Positions 48,092-55,142 of a stretch of 64,000 nucleotides of DNA are shown here, piece after piece. The DNA lies in NCBI RefSeq assembly GCF_000063445.1, contig NC_009464.1, positions 2,356,001 to 2,420,000 of the forward strand, in the 5' to 3' direction. Numbering within the stretch: the stretch's first letter is position 1; every line of letters starts with the position of its first letter. A program made the translations under genes and the position numbers. Below the pieces are notes generated by a model, which saw nothing but the letters and a program-made list of their open reading frames with translations, was not told the DNA's origin and did not search any database. The stretch is from Methanocella arvoryzae MRE50. GTDB taxonomy: Archaea > Halobacteriota > Methanocellia > Methanocellales > Methanocellaceae.

Positions 48092-48146
48092 AGTCTCCGC
48101 AAATACTCTCGCTACCGAAATTATCGTTTACAAACCGGTGTTACTC

Positions 48147-49127
48147 ATGAAGCTTGAACCATCGCAGGTAAAAGAAAAGTTCGGGCCGCTGTTTTCCCAG
48201 CGGCTGCTGACCATGGTGGATGACTCCCGGGGCGTCGCGGAGATCATCGAGACATGCGCCGTCCGGGGCACTATCGAGTGGGACGCGGTCAACCGGTGCC
48301 GGGCGGGCGGCATCATCGAGTGGTGCGAAGTAGAGGGTACCACCATGACGATGAGGGCGAGGCTCGGGGTGCAGAAGGCGAACTTCGGCCCGGCCGACAG
48401 CGAGATGGGTGGCCAGGCCCTGGAAGGCGTCACCCTCGACGGCGACACGGTCAGGACCCAGTGGGCGGGCACCGGTGGCGCCGGCCTGGGTGTTGCGGCG
48501 TGCCTCACCCAGGCGCCCGGGGTACTCTATTCTATCTACCCCAGTGAAGCCGACCTGAAAGTAGGCGGCTCCCACACGAACCGGGTGGAGATCGTTACGC
48601 CGCTGTACGAGAAAGTGACCATCGGCGTGGACGACACGGACAACAAGGACGGCGGCGCCACGTGGGTGACAGCCCTGAAGGCGAGCAAGATCGCCGCCAC
48701 CCTGCCGGGCGTGCAGGCCCTGAACCTCAGGCTCATCCAGCTGTGCCCGAAGTCGCCGAACAAGACGACCAACTGCGTCTCCTCAGCGATCACCTTCGCA
48801 GTCAGGCCCGACGCTTACGACACGCTGATCAACAGCGTCGTGGACACAGTTAAAGCGGAAAACAAGTCCGAAGAGCCCGGTATCGCCGTGTACCGGGGCA
48901 TCGGCATTCCCGCGGGCCTGAAAGAGTTCGGCTGGGCGACCAAGAGACAGCTGGTAAGCATGGCGGACGTGAACACTAAAGCGCAGGAGTTCGGCGTCGA
49001 GTTCATCGACCTCATGGGCCCGAAGGCGGGCAGAATCGGGGCGCTGGCAGCAGTGGCGCTCTCGGAGGAAAGGGCAGAAGTAGCAGCCCTCCACGAGGAC
49101 AAAGCGCTGCCCCTCATCCGAAGGTGA
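48147..49127 (+). CDS. methanogenesis marker protein 11
   Basis: A 326-residue protein of the methanogenesis marker 11 family, found in methanogens and relatives and of unknown reaction. The centre reads VTIGVDDTDNKDGGATWVTAL, a DDTD motif like that of the tRNA-Ile2 agmatidine synthase TiaS, where the aspartates bind ATP and metal; this suggests ATP use. Other landmarks: GTGGAGLGVAACLTQAPGV and SPNKTTNCVSSAITFAV, RGIGIPAGLKEFGWATKRQL. ATG 48147 (MKLEPSQVKEKF) is preferred to GTG 48138. The stop is seven bases before mtxX, so they form an operon, in agreement with a linked role in methanogenesis. Confidence 0.85.
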   Translation: MKLEPSQVKEKFGPLFSQRLLTMVDDSRGVAEIIETCAVRGTIEWDAVNRCRAGGIIEWCEVEGTTMTMRARLGVQKANFGPADSEMGGQALEGVTLDGDTVRTQWAGTGGAGLGVAACLTQAPGVLYSIYPSEADLKVGGSHTNRVEIVTPLYEKVTIGVDDTDNKDGGATWVTALKASKIAATLPGVQALNLRLIQLCPKSPNKTTNCVSSAITFAVRPDAYDTLINSVVDTVKAENKSEEPGIAVYRGIGIPAGLKEFGWATKRQLVSMADVNTKAQEFGVEFIDLMGPKAGRIGALAAVALSEERAEVAALHEDKALPLIRR

Positions 49128-49134
49128 GCGTGAA

Positions 49135-49935
49135 ATGGTCTGGGATACCATCGTCGCAGGCGCAAAGCGAAACCGGGCCAGGATAGCGGTAGGCATCGGC
49201 CCCGAGTACGTCGACAAAACCGTCACCTGCGCCGAACATGCGGACGCCTCGAGGTTTGCCGAGGTGACCCTGGTCACCGGCAGGCGCATCGAAACCGGGC
49301 TCCCCCAGTACGTATCCTCAGACCCTGAGGCGGCGCTGATCCGCCTGCTCAAGGAAGGCAAGGTCGATGGCGTAGTCAGAGGCTCCCTCAGCGCCAGCGC
49401 CACGCTTAAAAATTTAAAATCAGAAATGGGCCTCCAAAAAATAATGCGGGTATCCTTGCTCAAGACGCCTGCCGGCCGGTTTTTCTTCTTCGCCCCCGTC
49501 GGCGTGGACGAAGGCTGGACCGTCGAAGACAGAGTCGAGCTGGGCGTCCTCGGCGCAGACCTCATGCGCCGGTTCGGCATCGAGCCCGACATCGGCGTCC
49601 TCTCCGGCGGCCGGCTCGGCGACCGGGGCCGATCCCCGAGAGTCGACAAGTCCATGGACGACGCGGAAGAAGTGGCCCGGCTGCTCATGGAAAAGGGTAT
49701 CAAGGCGAAGCACGCCCAGATCCTCATCGAGGACGCCGTCAACGACCATAATTATGTCCTCGGTCCCGACGGCATCAGCGGCAACTTAATCTTCCGATCT
49801 CTATGTTTAGTCGGCGGCGGCGACGGCTACGGCGCTCCTTTAGTCGGTACAGACATCGTGTACGTCGATACGTCGCGGGCCGGCAGCGGGTATGAGCATG
49901 CTATCTGCATGGCCAGCGCGCTGTGCAAGAAATAG
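49135..49935 (+). CDS. mtxX: MtxX / methanogenesis marker protein 4
   Basis: A 266-residue protein of the MtxX (Mmp4) family, with a phosphotransacetylase-like fold. Seen: IGPEYVDKTVTCAEHADASR, LLKEGKVDGVVRGSLSASAT (substrate-pocket-like segment of phosphate acetyltransferases), IGVLSGGRLGDRGRSPRVDK and a C-terminal VGTDIVYVDTSRAGSGYEHA. The name came from genes near methyltransferases in Methanosarcina; the reaction is not established. It is cotranscribed with mmp11 here. GGTGAGCGTGAA before the ATG supplies the ribosome site. Confidence 0.88.
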   Translation: MVWDTIVAGAKRNRARIAVGIGPEYVDKTVTCAEHADASRFAEVTLVTGRRIETGLPQYVSSDPEAALIRLLKEGKVDGVVRGSLSASATLKNLKSEMGLQKIMRVSLLKTPAGRFFFFAPVGVDEGWTVEDRVELGVLGADLMRRFGIEPDIGVLSGGRLGDRGRSPRVDKSMDDAEEVARLLMEKGIKAKHAQILIEDAVNDHNYVLGPDGISGNLIFRSLCLVGGGDGYGAPLVGTDIVYVDTSRAGSGYEHAICMASALCKK

Positions 49936-49974: not shown

Positions 49975-50157
49975 CTACCACAGAGGCACAGAGGCTCACA
50001 GAGAAACTGTTTACCACAGAGGCACAGAGGCTCACAGAGGTTCACAGAGACTGATTTATTAAGTGGTTACTATCCAGTTATTTATCGAAAAATCTCTGTG
50101 TTTCTCTGTGTCTCTGTGGTGAGCCGTTCTCTGTGTTTCTCTGTGTCTCTGTGGTGA
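49975..50157. repeat. palindromic word-repeat element D, copy 1 (CACAGAGG word)
   Basis: Left arm (49975-50050): words CACAGAGGCACAGAGGCTCA; right arm (50092-50157): CTCTGTGTTTCTCTGTGTCT, twice. Loop of about 40 bases containing TAAGTGGTTACTATCCAGTT. Hairpin-forming; between two convergent genes. Second copy at 53193-53474. Confidence 0.8.
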
Positions 50158-50182: not shown

Positions 50183-51211
50183 CTATATTTCTTCCACCTT
50201 TGGCTTAAGCTCTCCGCGCACGCCGATCTTCTTCGCCTCTTTGACCTGCAGCATGCAGTCCACGCCGTAGGCGTCGTTGAACTTTTTGTAGTCGGCCATG
50301 TTGAGGAAGGCGGCGTCGATGGATACGGCGGAGTCGGAGGCGTAAATGCCAATGTCGTCCATGACTCTGTGGCCGGGATTCGGGAGGCAGTCGCAGAACT
50401 GGACGATGTCTTTTGCGAAGCTGACATACGAGACTTTGTCCTTCTTAAAGGTGGACAGGACCCCATATGCAGCGGAGGCCAGCGCCATGCTCAGGGCGGG
50501 CATGTTGACGAGCTGGATAGCTCCAGTCGGGCAGGCGTCTCTGCAGGCGGGGCAGCGCATGCATAGCTCTGACGTGTTGACTGCTTTTCTGTTGACGATC
50601 TCCGGCAACTGCAGGGCACAGGCATTCCTGCATGCGCCGCAGCCGACGCACCTGCCGCCGTCGATCTCCAGCCCGACCGTGCGGTGCTGCCGGAGCTTGC
50701 CGGTGCATGGCGTACAGCCCATGGCCAGGTTCTTGATCGCACCGCCGAAGCCGGTGAGCGCGTGGCCTTTACAGTGCGAGACCACAATCATGGCATCAGC
50801 CTCCGCAATGGCGCCGGATACCTCGATCTCGTCGAGAATGCCTTTAGTCTTCACAGTCCTGAAGCTCTCGCTGCGTAGCCCGTCTGCCGGTATAAACGGC
50901 GCCCCGCCATAACCGTTGAGCTCAGCGTTCTCCCAGTGGTCGACCGCGTTGCTGCGGTGAGCCTGATAGTAAGTTGACGAGTCAGTCAGGAACGGCTTGC
51001 CGCCTTTACTTTTCACAGCGCCTATAATCTGGCGGACGAAGAAGGGCGGGATGTAGTACGGGTTGCCCAGCTCGCCCACGTGGAGCTTGATGGCGACCAG
51101 ATCACCTTCGCCAACGCAGTCGAATGTGCCGGCTTCTTCGTACAGCACCGAAGCTTCGTCCATGAGATTGTATCCTGTATCCCAGGGGGTGAAATAGACG
51201 GTCATGGTCAT
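50183..51211 (-). CDS. DUF362 protein with two [4Fe-4S] ferredoxin motifs
   Basis: About 342 residues. The DUF362 part has DLVAIKLHVGELGNPYYIPP, KGGKPFLTDSSTYY and VVSHCKGHALTGFGGAIKNL then AMGCTPCTGK. A ferredoxin insert follows with CVGCGACRNAC and CMRCPACRDACPTGAI, eight cysteines for two clusters. The end resumes the DUF362 fold (SYVSFAKDIVQFCDCLPNPG). It probably moves electrons in the cytoplasm; the partner is unknown. Start ATG 51211 (MTMTVYFTPWDTG) or 51205; the longer frame opening at 51256 adds an unlikely leader. Single gene. Confidence 0.85.
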   Translation of the reverse strand: MTMTVYFTPWDTGYNLMDEASVLYEEAGTFDCVGEGDLVAIKLHVGELGNPYYIPPFFVRQIIGAVKSKGGKPFLTDSSTYYQAHRSNAVDHWENAELNGYGGAPFIPADGLRSESFRTVKTKGILDEIEVSGAIAEADAMIVVSHCKGHALTGFGGAIKNLAMGCTPCTGKLRQHRTVGLEIDGGRCVGCGACRNACALQLPEIVNRKAVNTSELCMRCPACRDACPTGAIQLVNMPALSMALASAAYGVLSTFKKDKVSYVSFAKDIVQFCDCLPNPGHRVMDDIGIYASDSAVSIDAAFLNMADYKKFNDAYGVDCMLQVKEAKKIGVRGELKPKVEEI

Positions 51212-51308
51212 TAGAAGGACGGTTAATGACAAATAGCTTAGCTCTGACCCACTCACTTTTTATTTTATGGTGCCCTCTCCTTTGTTTGGGCAGCCGTATG
51301 AGTAAGCC

Positions 51309-51324: not shown

Positions 51325-51385
51325 CTCAAAAAATCTCTGACGCTCTCCTGTCCGAAGGACAAAAGTTTTATTATGTGGTGAGCAA

Positions 51386-51419: not shown

Positions 51420-52415
51420 ATGATTGGAATGATTCTCTGCGGTGGCATGGGGAGCAGGCTGAAGCCTTACACTGATTCTACTCCGGCTCCGCTTATCGAA
51501 ATTAAGGAGCAGTACACGATCCTGGACAAGCAGCTGTTCGATTTCGCGGCGGCTGGCATTACCGAGGCAGTATTGCTTACCGGGTACAAAGGTGACATGA
51601 TCGAGGCCCGGTACGGGAAGGAGTTCAAGGGTGTCCGCTTATTGTACCACTACGAAGAGAAGCCTGAAGGCACTCTTAAGGCTATCCGGGCTGGCATGGA
51701 GATGGTGAAGAGTGACACGTTCCTCGTCAGGAACGGCCATATCGTGTCCGATGTCAACATCCGCAGGATGATTCAGAGGCATGAGCACGGCACCAACGGG
51801 GCTACCATGTTCGTGACGAGGATGCGCAGCCCGTTCGGCATCGTAGAATTAGGGGATGACCGGGTGAAGTCGTTCCGGGAAAAGCCCGTTTTAGAGTACT
51901 ACATCAACGGAGGCGTGTACTGCCTGAACCGTGACCTGCCCTTCGACCAGTTCGAGGGCGGGGCGGTCGAGCAGACTTTGTTCCCCCTGATCGCGGAGAG
52001 CAACCGGCTCGGCTACTACAGGGAAGACGACGTGTTCTGGAGCCAGGCCAGCACTGTCCGTGACTTAGAAGATATCCGCAAGGAGTACCGGAACAAGACT
52101 GACAAGCCATGGGGCTACGAGAAAGTTCTCATTAGTACGGACAAGTACCTCACCAAGGAACTGTTCATTCGTGCCGGCTACCAGACCTCTTTCCACAAGC
52201 ACCCCCGGAAGGACGAGACCATGTACATCATGAGCGGCGTCGGCTACATCGAGTTCGAGGACCACAAGGAGTTCTTCCAGAAGCACGATACGATAAGGAT
52301 CGAGCCGGACGTCCCGCACACTATCGTGGCCACCGAGAACACCGTGCTGCACGAAGTCAGCACTCCGTTCCTGGAGGACACCGTCCGCCTGACGGACTAC
52401 TATAACGTGAGGTAA
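51420..52415 (+). CDS. nucleotidyltransferase-like protein fused to a cupin, catalytic residues replaced
   Basis: 331 residues: a sugar-nucleotidyltransferase fold (1-225) and a C-terminal cupin (230-331; FHKHPRKDETMYIMSGVGYI and VPHTIVA, the metal-binding His/His/Glu and His). The fold matches the next gene, but three residues needed for catalysis differ: TPAPLIEI has Ala for the Lys of IPKPMVPV, RNGHIVSD has His for the metal-binding Asp of MNGDIISN, and FWSQAST has Gln for the Asp of YWSDVGT. The protein is therefore probably inactive as a transferase and may regulate its partner, while the cupin may bind a sugar. Four bases separate it from the next gene. Confidence 0.8.
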   Translation: MIGMILCGGMGSRLKPYTDSTPAPLIEIKEQYTILDKQLFDFAAAGITEAVLLTGYKGDMIEARYGKEFKGVRLLYHYEEKPEGTLKAIRAGMEMVKSDTFLVRNGHIVSDVNIRRMIQRHEHGTNGATMFVTRMRSPFGIVELGDDRVKSFREKPVLEYYINGGVYCLNRDLPFDQFEGGAVEQTLFPLIAESNRLGYYREDDVFWSQASTVRDLEDIRKEYRNKTDKPWGYEKVLISTDKYLTKELFIRAGYQTSFHKHPRKDETMYIMSGVGYIEFEDHKEFFQKHDTIRIEPDVPHTIVATENTVLHEVSTPFLEDTVRLTDYYNVR

Positions 52416-52419
52416 TCCC

Positions 52420-53115
52420 GTGAAAGCGTTCATCCTCTGCGGCGGCCGGGGCGAGAGGCTCAAGCCGATCACCGATAAGATCCCGAAGCCGATGGTACCC
52501 GTAGCTGGCAAGCCTATCCTGGAATACCAGGTCGATCTCTTGAAGAAGCATGGCGTCCGGGACATCGTGTTCCTCGTCGGCTGGTACGGCGAGGCGATAG
52601 AGGCCTATTTCGGCGACGGCAGCAAGTTCGGCATCCGGGCCGAGTACTCCTACGAAGACCCGAACAACCGTCTGGGCACCGCCGGGCCGATCAAGGCGGC
52701 GAAGGACAAGGTAGACGGCGCCATCATAGTCATGAACGGCGACATCATCTCCAACACCAACATAAGTGAGATCGTCGCGTTCCACACAAAAAAGAAGTGC
52801 CTAGGCACCATCAACATGATCAACATGCCCTCGCCCTTCGGCATCATCGACCTGAACGGCGATCACATCACCCAGTTCCGTGAGAAGCCCGTCCTGCCCT
52901 TCAAGATGAACGCAGGGCTATACGTTATCGAAGCCGACGTCGTCGACATGATGCCCGCAGTGGGTTCCATTGAGACCGACGTCTTCCCGAAGATAGCAGC
53001 AGAGGGGAAGCTGTGCGGCTACGACTCTACTGGAATATACTGGAGCGACGTAGGCACCCACAAAGACCTGGAGAAAGTGACCAAAGACGTCCAGTCTGGT
53101 GCTTTCAAGCTATAA
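52420..53115 (+). CDS. sugar-1-phosphate nucleotidyltransferase (mannose/glucose-1-P type)
   Basis: A 231-residue single-domain enzyme that joins a sugar-1-phosphate to NTP to give an NDP-sugar for surface glycans. Motifs are intact: GGRGERLKPITDKIPKP (nucleotide binding and Lys), VMNGDIISN and IYWSDVGTHKDLEKV (metal Asp residues), FREKPVLPFKMNAGLYV (sugar binding). The sugar cannot be told from sequence; GDP-mannose and glucose types are both possible. GTG start at 52420 directly after the stop of the inactive partner, with GAGGT upstream. Paired expression suggests a hetero-oligomer. Confidence 0.85.
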   Translation: MKAFILCGGRGERLKPITDKIPKPMVPVAGKPILEYQVDLLKKHGVRDIVFLVGWYGEAIEAYFGDGSKFGIRAEYSYEDPNNRLGTAGPIKAAKDKVDGAIIVMNGDIISNTNISEIVAFHTKKKCLGTINMINMPSPFGIIDLNGDHITQFREKPVLPFKMNAGLYVIEADVVDMMPAVGSIETDVFPKIAAEGKLCGYDSTGIYWSDVGTHKDLEKVTKDVQSGAFKL

Positions 53116-53192: not shown

Positions 53193-53474
53193 CAACCATA
53201 GAGGCACAGAATTACTGTTTTACCACAGAGGCACAGAGGTGCACAGAGAACTGGTAACCACAGAGGCACAGAGGTGCACAGAGAACTGGTAACCACAGAG
53301 GCACAGAGGTGCACAGAGAACTGGTAACCACAGAGGCACAGAGGTGCACAGAGTTACGTCTATAAAATGATTACCATTAAATTATTCGCTTAAAGTATCT
53401 CTGTGTTTCTCTGTGTCTCTGTGGTGAGCCGTTCTCTGTGTTTCTCTGTGTTTCTCTGTGCCTCTGTGGTGAAT
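53193..53474. repeat. palindromic word-repeat element D, copy 2, with 35-bp tandem units
   Basis: The left arm holds tandem units of period 35 (starting at 53253, 53288 and 53323, each GGTAACCACAGAGGCACAGA onward). The loop (about 53356-53396) has ATGATTACCATTAAATTATT, like copy 1. The right arm is CTCTGTGTTTCTCTGTGTCT, repeated. Lies between two convergent genes. Confidence 0.85.
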
Positions 53475-53485
53475 AGTAGGACTTT

Positions 53486-54541
53486 TCACTCTTTCTTCTC
53501 CTCTTCATGTTCATGCCTGTGGTGGATGTCAGGGCGGTGGGCGTGGGTGTGCCGGACCTCCTCATGGTGGTGCATACCCGATCCCGGTGTTTTGAACGGG
53601 TGGTGGGTGTCGGGCTCATAATAGTGTTCGTGGTAGACGGCGGTGTGGACGTGGACGTGGTCGTGGTGCTCGCCGAACAGGAGGGCGGCTCCGGCGATCA
53701 TCAGGGGCAGCGAGAGGAGGAGCTGCAGGCCCGGGGCGTCGGTGAAGAGTACGAGGGACAGGGCTGTGCCGGCAAAGGGTGCGATGCCGAACCATGCGCT
53801 GGTCCTGGCTGCTCCCATGCCTCTGGTGGCCCTGATGAACATGACGATGCTGAGCCCGTAGCACAGGGCGCCTACGATCAATACGATGACTACGGGAGTA
53901 ATGCCGGCGGGCATCTGCCGGCTCAGGGCGGCGGCCAGGATGAGTGAGAAGGTTCCTGCGGCCAGGCCTTTGATCAGCCCTATGGTGACCGGGTCTTTGG
54001 CCGATATCCGGCAGGTCACGTTGTTGTCGATGCCCCAGAATATGCATGCTCCCACGACTGCGAGAGCGCCGGCGGAAATTCCGAAAGCGCCTGAGAGGTC
54101 GAGGGTCAACACGGCAGCCGCTACCGTGATCAGGCCAATGGCAACCCACACTCTCCGCCCGACGGCTTCCCTGAAGGCCAGAACGGCAATGCTCGTCGTG
54201 GCGACGCACTCGAAGTTGAGCAGCAACGATGCGGTAGCCGCGGGCGTGGCCTGGAGGCCGAGCATCAGCAGGATCGGGGCTATGACGCCGCCGGAGATGG
54301 CGGAGGCTGCCAGCCAGGGGAGGTCAGTTTTAGCCAGGCCTGCTTCACGTTTTACGGTTCGCAGCCTGGTGGTGATCTTTGCCAGCAGCAACCCTGCCCC
54401 ACAGCCTAAATAAAGTAGCGCGGCAAGGACGATAGGGTCGACGCTACCCAGTAATGCTTTCGCCAGCGGCGCGCTGGCCCCGAACAGCGCCGCCCCGCCG
54501 ACGGCCAGAAACACGGGGTAAATCTGCTGCCGATCCATCAT
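53486..54541 (-). CDS. EamA/DMT-family transporter with histidine-rich tail
   Basis: A 351-residue inner membrane transporter with ten helices and two EamA repeats (FLAVGGAALFGASAPLAKAL; GALAVVGACIFWGIDNNVTC). The last 60 residues are cytoplasmic and carry about 20 histidines (EHHDHVHVHTAVYHEHYYEP; MHHHEEVRHTHAHRPD; HHRHEHEEEKKE), typical of metal-binding tails on nickel or zinc carriers. Substrate unknown; a metal, or metal-dependent gating, is plausible. ATG 54541 is chosen since GGAGGGAG lies just upstream; a second ATG follows. The longer frame opening at 54913 is not supported. The stop is 12 bases from repeat D copy 2. Confidence 0.82.
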   Translation of the reverse strand: MMDRQQIYPVFLAVGGAALFGASAPLAKALLGSVDPIVLAALLYLGCGAGLLLAKITTRLRTVKREAGLAKTDLPWLAASAISGGVIAPILLMLGLQATPAATASLLLNFECVATTSIAVLAFREAVGRRVWVAIGLITVAAAVLTLDLSGAFGISAGALAVVGACIFWGIDNNVTCRISAKDPVTIGLIKGLAAGTFSLILAAALSRQMPAGITPVVIVLIVGALCYGLSIVMFIRATRGMGAARTSAWFGIAPFAGTALSLVLFTDAPGLQLLLSLPLMIAGAALLFGEHHDHVHVHTAVYHEHYYEPDTHHPFKTPGSGMHHHEEVRHTHAHRPDIHHRHEHEEEKKE

Positions 54542-54632
54542 CTCTCCCTCCGCTATATTTGCGTCGGAAGCGTGAATAAAGTATCCTGTAATTACCGCAA
54601 AATATCTAACCGGGTGGAACCTACCGCTATTT

Positions 54633-55142
54633 ATGCGCCTGAAGGCTCTGTTGTACCTGCTCATCACAGGGATCCTGTCGATATCGCTCCTGGCGTCGGG
54701 ATGCACCCTGCCCCGGGCTACTCCTGCCCCGACGGGCACCCCGGTGCCCGGCTCGCCTGCAGATGCCGGAATACCTGAGATCTCTGATATGTCCCCTGTG
54801 GACACGGCGCTCGAAAGCAGGCCTGTCTTCATCGAGTTCGGCGCCCCCTGGTGTTTCTGGTGTGAACTGGAAAAGCCGGTGCTGGAGGACCTCTCGGCCG
54901 AGTACCCGGACATCGCCTTCTACAGCGCCAACGCCGACGAAAGCCCCCGTCTGGCAGACGATTTTTACGTGCAAGGCATCCCGGCGATGTACCTGATCGT
55001 TAAGAAAAACGCTGACGGCAGCTACGTGTACATTGACCCTGCAGGCAAGACGAGCAGTGACCGTGCTAAGTCGATGATCAGGGGATACCGGACCTACGAT
55101 CAGCTCAAGCCTCTTATGGAGGCGGCTGAGGCCGCGAAATAA
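54633..55142 (+). CDS. thioredoxin-like lipoprotein
   Basis: 169 residues: signal peptide and lipobox (SLLASGC, Cys about 24), a Pro/Thr-rich linker, then a thioredoxin domain (about 55-165). The redox site is EFGAPWCFWCELEKPVLEDL, a CFWC pair; the cis-Pro is in VQGIPAMYLIV. Likely a lipid-anchored thiol-disulfide protein outside the membrane, able to reduce or form disulfides. ATG 54633 heads the signal sequence. Divergent from the EamA gene across a gap of 91 bases. Confidence 0.82.
   Translation: MRLKALLYLLITGILSISLLASGCTLPRATPAPTGTPVPGSPADAGIPEISDMSPVDTALESRPVFIEFGAPWCFWCELEKPVLEDLSAEYPDIAFYSANADESPRLADDFYVQGIPAMYLIVKKNADGSYVYIDPAGKTSSDRAKSMIRGYRTYDQLKPLMEAAEAAK

Follow-up and report, generated by a model that had tools for sequence, protein, structure and literature searches.

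The window analysed here is a stretch of 64,000 nucleotides from the closed genome (3,179,916 bases) of Methanocella arvoryzae MRE50. It contains two neighbouring genes, referred to here as P1 and P2, in which the following features can be recognized:

51364-51373, + strand: AT-rich TATA-like stretch (ttttattatg), read from the sequence about 50 bp upstream of the P1 start; perhaps a promoter element of archaeal type
51420-52415, + strand: P1, a nucleotidyltransferase (NT)-cupin fusion of 331 amino acids (PF00483 plus Cupin_2, with full-length orthologues)
51420-52094, + strand: NT domain of P1, residues 1-225, predicted to be non-catalytic from Ala23, His107, Gln209/Ser211 and an NT/cupin divergence ratio of 5.0
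51486-51488, + strand: codon GCT (Ala23) in place of the catalytic Lys, from codon reading and alignment
51738-51740, + strand: codon CAT (His107) in place of the first metal Asp, from codon reading and alignment (NGD Asp site)
52044-52052, + strand: Gln209-Ala210-Ser211, where the second metal Asp is lost, from codon reading and alignment
52104-52412, + strand: cupin domain of P1, residues 229-331, motif H259-x-H261-x4-E266 ... H300 intact
52405-52422, + strand: P1/P2 junction, with a GAGGT ribosome-binding-like sequence across the P1 stop, a 4 bp gap and the GTG start of P2
52420-53115, + strand: P2, a stand-alone NT of 231 amino acids (PF00483 alone), Lys23, Asp108 and Asp210 kept

A longer P1 frame opens with a GTG at 51375, but the start was placed at the ATG at 51420 because orthology begins there. 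The N-terminal part of P1 matches PF00483 with 99 bits (4.1e-28; gathering cut-off 21.2) and P2 matches it with 137 bits (1e-39), and the predicted folds of both proteins agree with this assignment. The AlphaFold model of P2 has a mean pLDDT of 88, and its nearest folds are sugar-1-phosphate nucleotidyltransferases including GMPPB/VTC1; that of P1 has a mean pLDDT of 71 and is weak in the loops 10-32 and 135-163. Over the NT domain (228 amino acids) the two proteins are 36% identical. The cupin of P1 matches Cupin_2 (PF07883) with 30.3 bits (3.5e-7; cut-off 27.2), and H259, H261, E266 and H300 are invariant in the alignment, as in a Cupin_2 or mannose-6-phosphate-isomerase-like cupin. Its match to PF01050 is borderline, at 25.1 bits in the genome search and 23.2 in the protein scan (cut-off 23.6).

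Tandem repeats of the CACAGAGGCACAGAGG type flank the gene pair on both sides (49979-50040, 53222-53353 and 53398-53460), the one at 53222 having a 35-bp unit in 3.8 perfect copies. Divergent from P1 lies a gene for a DUF362 protein with a 4Fe-4S ferredoxin insert (50183-51256, - strand), an arrangement found also in the related genomes G001 and G003. Further upstream are tandem methanogenesis marker 11-like (Mmp11-like, below its cut-off) and MtxX genes (48138-49935), whose order is repeated in G003. On the other side is an EamA-type transporter with a long His-rich, perhaps metal-binding, C-terminal tail (53486-54913, - strand), the called start of which is possibly too far upstream.

An active sugar-1-phosphate nucleotidyltransferase has a triphosphate-binding Lys and two metal Asp residues; all three are present in P2 (Lys23 AAG, Asp108 GAC, Asp210 GAC), the transferase site of which looks intact, and P1 has none of them. 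The Lys of the PKP motif is Ala in P1 and the Asp of NGD is His, while at the second metal site P1 has Gln-Ala-Ser where P2 has Asp-Val-Gly. This site can be read in two registers, CAG (Gln209) falling in the WxD register and AGC (Ser211) in the xxxDT register. Orthologues that keep the Lys never have Asp at 209, and their second Asp is residue 211 (W-x-x-x-D-T, the register of RfbF); P1 therefore lacks the second metal Asp in both. The matching residues of the plant enzyme VTC1, Lys23, Asp111 and Asp219, are active-site residues (PMC9168903). Thus the observations of the first-pass annotation, made from these letters alone, that the first protein carries a cupin and lacks a Lys and two Asp residues that its neighbour retains, hold at the level of codons and of the complete HxH(x4)E...H motif. 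In the window protein, 8 of 65 family-invariant NT columns are changed, including three of the four catalytic ones (p = 0.005); across the Methanocellia the figure is 14/65, including all four of Arg13, Lys23, Asp107 and Asp211 (p = 0.0015). The changes in P1 are concentrated on catalytic columns beyond chance, and its transferase site is, judging from these residues, very probably dead.

Full-length orthologues of P1 occur in 19 of the 393 genomes of the phylum, and others were found in Methanobrevibacter, Candidatus Methanorudis, another Methanobacteriaceae genome and a Thermoprotei MAG. The alignment comprised 25 proteins: four from Methanocellia (the window species and its three sisters PtaU1.Bin125, G001 and G003), 19 that keep the Lys, and two degenerate paralogues. 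All 19 Lys-keeping orthologues, which come from other archaea, carry Lys23, Asp107 and Asp211, and the P1 family was therefore ancestrally active, probably as a bifunctional NT-cupin protein. In all four Methanocellia Lys23 has become Ala. Residue 211 is Ser in the window species, Asn in its nearest sister PtaU1.Bin125 and Asp in the other two, and among active-type and Methanocellia copies only the window species has His at 107. In G001 and G003, then, Lys23 is the only one of the three catalytic residues to be lost (G001 has in addition changed Arg13 to Lys). The Methanocellia proteins form one group in trees of the full protein (support 92/96) and of the NT domain (97/99), and the simplest history appears to be loss of Lys, then Asp211, then Asp107. 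The losses do not mark out an old regulatory subunit: the 19 orthologues outside the Methanocellia keep the Lys and Asp residues, a result that the first-pass annotation had named as refuting its reading, and even within the class two of the three sisters keep both Asp residues.

The two halves of P1 have evolved very differently. The ratio of summed protein distances, NT over cupin, is 4.97 in the Methanocellia (bootstrap 3.03-8.99) and 1.27, 0.91, 1.01, 0.83 and 1.00 in the Lys-keeping groups, and the way in which variable columns are split between NT and cupin differs too (p from 0.03 to 6e-6). None of the 19 family-invariant cupin columns is changed in the Methanocellia, compared with 14 of the 65 in the NT domain; given this and the divergence ratio, it is the cupin of P1 that is strictly conserved, and selection on the NT domain has relaxed relative to it. 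Nevertheless, 51 of the 65 NT columns are unchanged in all four Methanocellia, including E79, N105, E154, N163 and W207 of the pocket for nucleotide and sugar, which makes binding without catalysis plausible. Pairwise dN/dS for the NT domain is about 0.08-0.26, in the range of purifying selection, though dS is near saturation and these values serve as support only. Because the domain is undeleted and still under purifying selection, it still has some role.

P2 adjoins P1 in all four Methanocellia genomes, the distance between the genes ranging from a few bp to about 16, and the junction motif recurs as GAGGT in PtaU1.Bin125 and GAGAT in G001. The two genes are a conserved, closely spaced pair and likely an operon. 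No P2 was found beside any Lys-keeping orthologue of P1 in stretches of up to 6 kb on each side (shorter at contig ends). Since the Methanocellia are a single clade, this association of P2 with the losses in P1 counts as one event. Several genomes have another NT some 2 kb away from the P1 orthologue; it was considered as an equivalent of P2 and rejected, as it is RmlA/GlmU-like and only 28-33% identical to P2. An origin of P2 as a tandem duplicate of the NT domain of P1 is likewise ruled out by the tree and the AU test, in which a single clade of Methanocellia P1 and P2 was rejected (p-AU about 1e-76); the exact placement of P2 is unsure, its tree having long branches and few sampled outgroups. 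The best P2 relative found outside the Methanocellia (47% identity) is in genome G030, where no P1 was detected at the search threshold and no cupin lies near the relative. This closest relative, around 6217-6873 of L072 / L082, offers a lead to the origin of P2.

In a second lineage, the genus g4, several genomes harbour two NT-cupin copies. One, of active type, keeps the NT residues and has changes at otherwise invariant cupin residues (D265E, T267S, P296R/S, E312S). The other keeps the cupin and has lost 42 of the 65 invariant NT columns; it has no PF00483 match and no adjacent NT, and its NT/cupin ratio is 7.3. Copies with opposite decay are located at 5992-6951 of L065 and L066, 5995-6987 of L059 and 5995-6990 of L062. 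From their residues, this pair looks like reciprocal subfunctionalisation, and the same NT-cupin fusion appears to have been separated twice, independently.

The neighbours of P1 orthologues give some indication of the pathway. Those of the Methanobacteriaceae adjoin GT10 or GT11 fucosyltransferases and, in the case of Methanorudis within that family, genes for a GDP-mannose 4,6-dehydratase and a protein like GDP-fucose synthase (the latter just under its cut-off); others adjoin NDP-sugar dehydrogenases. All four Methanocellia genomes contain gmd, and a profile search of the four detected no phosphomannose isomerase of type I (PF01238) or PGI type (PF10432). The P1 cupin is among the few PF01050 matches in its genome. 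On the basis of these neighbours, gmd, the absent isomerases and the PF01050 match, a GDP-sugar pathway with an isomerase-type cupin is the best guess, and the P1 cupin is a candidate for the phosphomannose isomerase that is missing from the Methanocellia. The window genome encodes seven NTs in all, and others of these could serve the same pathway.

The explanation we favour, with confidence only a little above even, is that this two-gene operon results from separating the two activities of a fused enzyme, P2 now carrying out the transfer and P1 working through its cupin. In the ancestor of P1, a working sugar-1-phosphate nucleotidyltransferase would have shared one chain with a metal-binding cupin resembling mannose-6-phosphate isomerase. 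On the stem of the Methanocellia an NT of another lineage, P2, would have joined it as a close and probably translationally coupled partner, after which P1 would have lost the triphosphate-binding Lys throughout the class. Loss of the second metal Asp would have followed, and the first would have gone last, in the window species. Today P2 would make an NDP-sugar, most likely a GDP-sugar, and P1 would contribute the cupin reaction, perhaps isomerisation or epimerisation of a sugar phosphate or NDP-sugar, with its non-catalytic NT domain as a docking and ligand-binding module. We infer that P2 arrived before the Lys was lost, that P1 and P2 bind each other, and that the cupin is catalytic on such a substrate. 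The distribution of residue losses, the domain-specific relaxation, the conservation of the pair, the separate origin of P2, the second independent case and the GDP-sugar setting all speak for separation. Against it count the persistence of the NT domain under purifying selection, the many surviving pocket residues, needless in a pure cupin enzyme, the weak match of the cupin to mannose-6-phosphate isomerase (about 25 bits), a score far under the GMP/PMI equivalog cut-off, the other NTs of the genome, and the restriction of the losses in P1 with P2 alongside to a single clade.

Those same pocket residues make regulation possible. In eukaryotes, GMPPA binds GDP-mannose and inhibits its paralogue GMPPB (PMC11228364), and P1 might similarly bind the NDP-sugar product, through the inactive pocket of its NT domain or through its cupin, and control P2 allosterically within a hetero-oligomer, which we regard as possible but doubtful. 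The five retained positions match the VTC1 pocket, 51 of the 65 invariant columns survive as opposed to 23 in the dead g4 copy, the losses are concentrated on phosphate and metal chemistry, and the gene pair is conserved and closely spaced. However, divergence of the NT domain is about fivefold that of the cupin, P2 is not the sister of P1, two sister species still have both Asp residues, and the left-handed beta-helix domains that form the GMPPA/GMPPB interface (PMC9168903) are absent from P1 and P2. Equally tentative is the idea that the dead domain became an NDP-sugar sensor controlling P2, in which case P1 would be a pseudoenzyme in the making: its NT chemistry would have been lost residue by residue after P2 had joined, and archaea would have reached the logic of GMPPA/GMPPB independently. 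The relaxed selection on the NT domain makes the cupin the likelier retained activity, ahead of a domain conserved for sensing. If the NT domain were instead vestigial, a passenger decaying on a cupin enzyme, and P2 an operon neighbour making no physical contact, the relaxed NT domain beside an unchanged cupin and the dead g4 copy with no adjacent NT would be expected; we think this improbable, as the domain is full-length, with no frameshift or truncation in the four genomes, persists under purifying selection and retains pocket residues. It is very improbable that P1 has kept NT activity by means of other residues in any of the Methanocellia: G001 and G003 have both Asp residues and lack only Lys23, but the window protein lacks all three of the residues that lie in the active site of VTC1 (PMC9168903).

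A search of a library of open-access papers yielded no NT-cupin or Methanocella precedent. Returning to the separation of a fused enzyme, a comparable architecture is that of ManC/AlgA, the bifunctional mannose-1-phosphate guanylyltransferase/mannose-6-phosphate isomerase, in which an NT is likewise followed by an isomerase-type cupin, and the P1 cupin aligns to the C-terminal part of TIGR01479. P1 was rejected as a member of that family, scoring 39.7 bits against an equivalog cut-off of 372.95 over residues 236-341 only. In addition, the NT part of the P1 family is of GMPPB/RfbF type, and the ManC cupin motif begins with Gln where P1 has HxH(x4)E. RfbF, glucose-1-phosphate cytidylyltransferase (1TZF/1WVC), shares with the Lys-keeping orthologues a second metal Asp in the W-x-x-x-D-T register, but lacks a cupin, and the P1 family has a base loop (E-x-x-P-L-G-T) resembling that of guanylyltransferases. 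Positions 131 and 236 of RfbF are Asp in the aligned chain, and we take these to bind the metal; a literature search found no paper naming the metal ligands of RfbF.

A division of labour between a catalytic and a regulatory NT homologue is also known in GlgC/GlgD, where GlgD is the regulatory partner of the catalytic GlgC in bacterial ADP-glucose pyrophosphorylase (PMC10395257), and in GalU/GalF, GalF being listed in NCBIfam as a GalU regulator. Each of these two pairs consists of paralogues; unlike P1, they have no cupin, and they belong to other NT subfamilies. In PDB sequence comparisons GMPPB ranks first for P1 and among the top matches for P2. The part of the first-pass comparison with GMPPA/GMPPB that stands is the conserved pairing of a non-catalytic NT protein, much of its pocket retained, with an active one. 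An origin by duplication and a GMPPA/GMPPB-type interface are unsupported: P1 has a cupin in place of the beta-helix, P2 has no second domain, the two are not sister genes, and the catalytic losses of P1 are recent and stepwise. GMPPA/GMPPB is thus a useful analogy for the working mode, not for membership or origin. In the dead/live nucleotidyltransferase pairs known from eukaryotes and bacteria the origins are old and the intermediates gone. The four Methanocellia genomes hold successive steps (Lys; one Asp; both), with active-type orthologues outside the clade, and so give a snapshot of an enzyme on its way to becoming a non-catalytic partner. The NT-cupin family itself is an uncharacterised archaeal one, associated with gene clusters for GDP-sugars and fucose. 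Because these steps and orthologues survive, it is testable in what order the losses came, whether P2 triggered them by its arrival and what the dead domain still does, and the parallel split in g4 provides a natural replicate.
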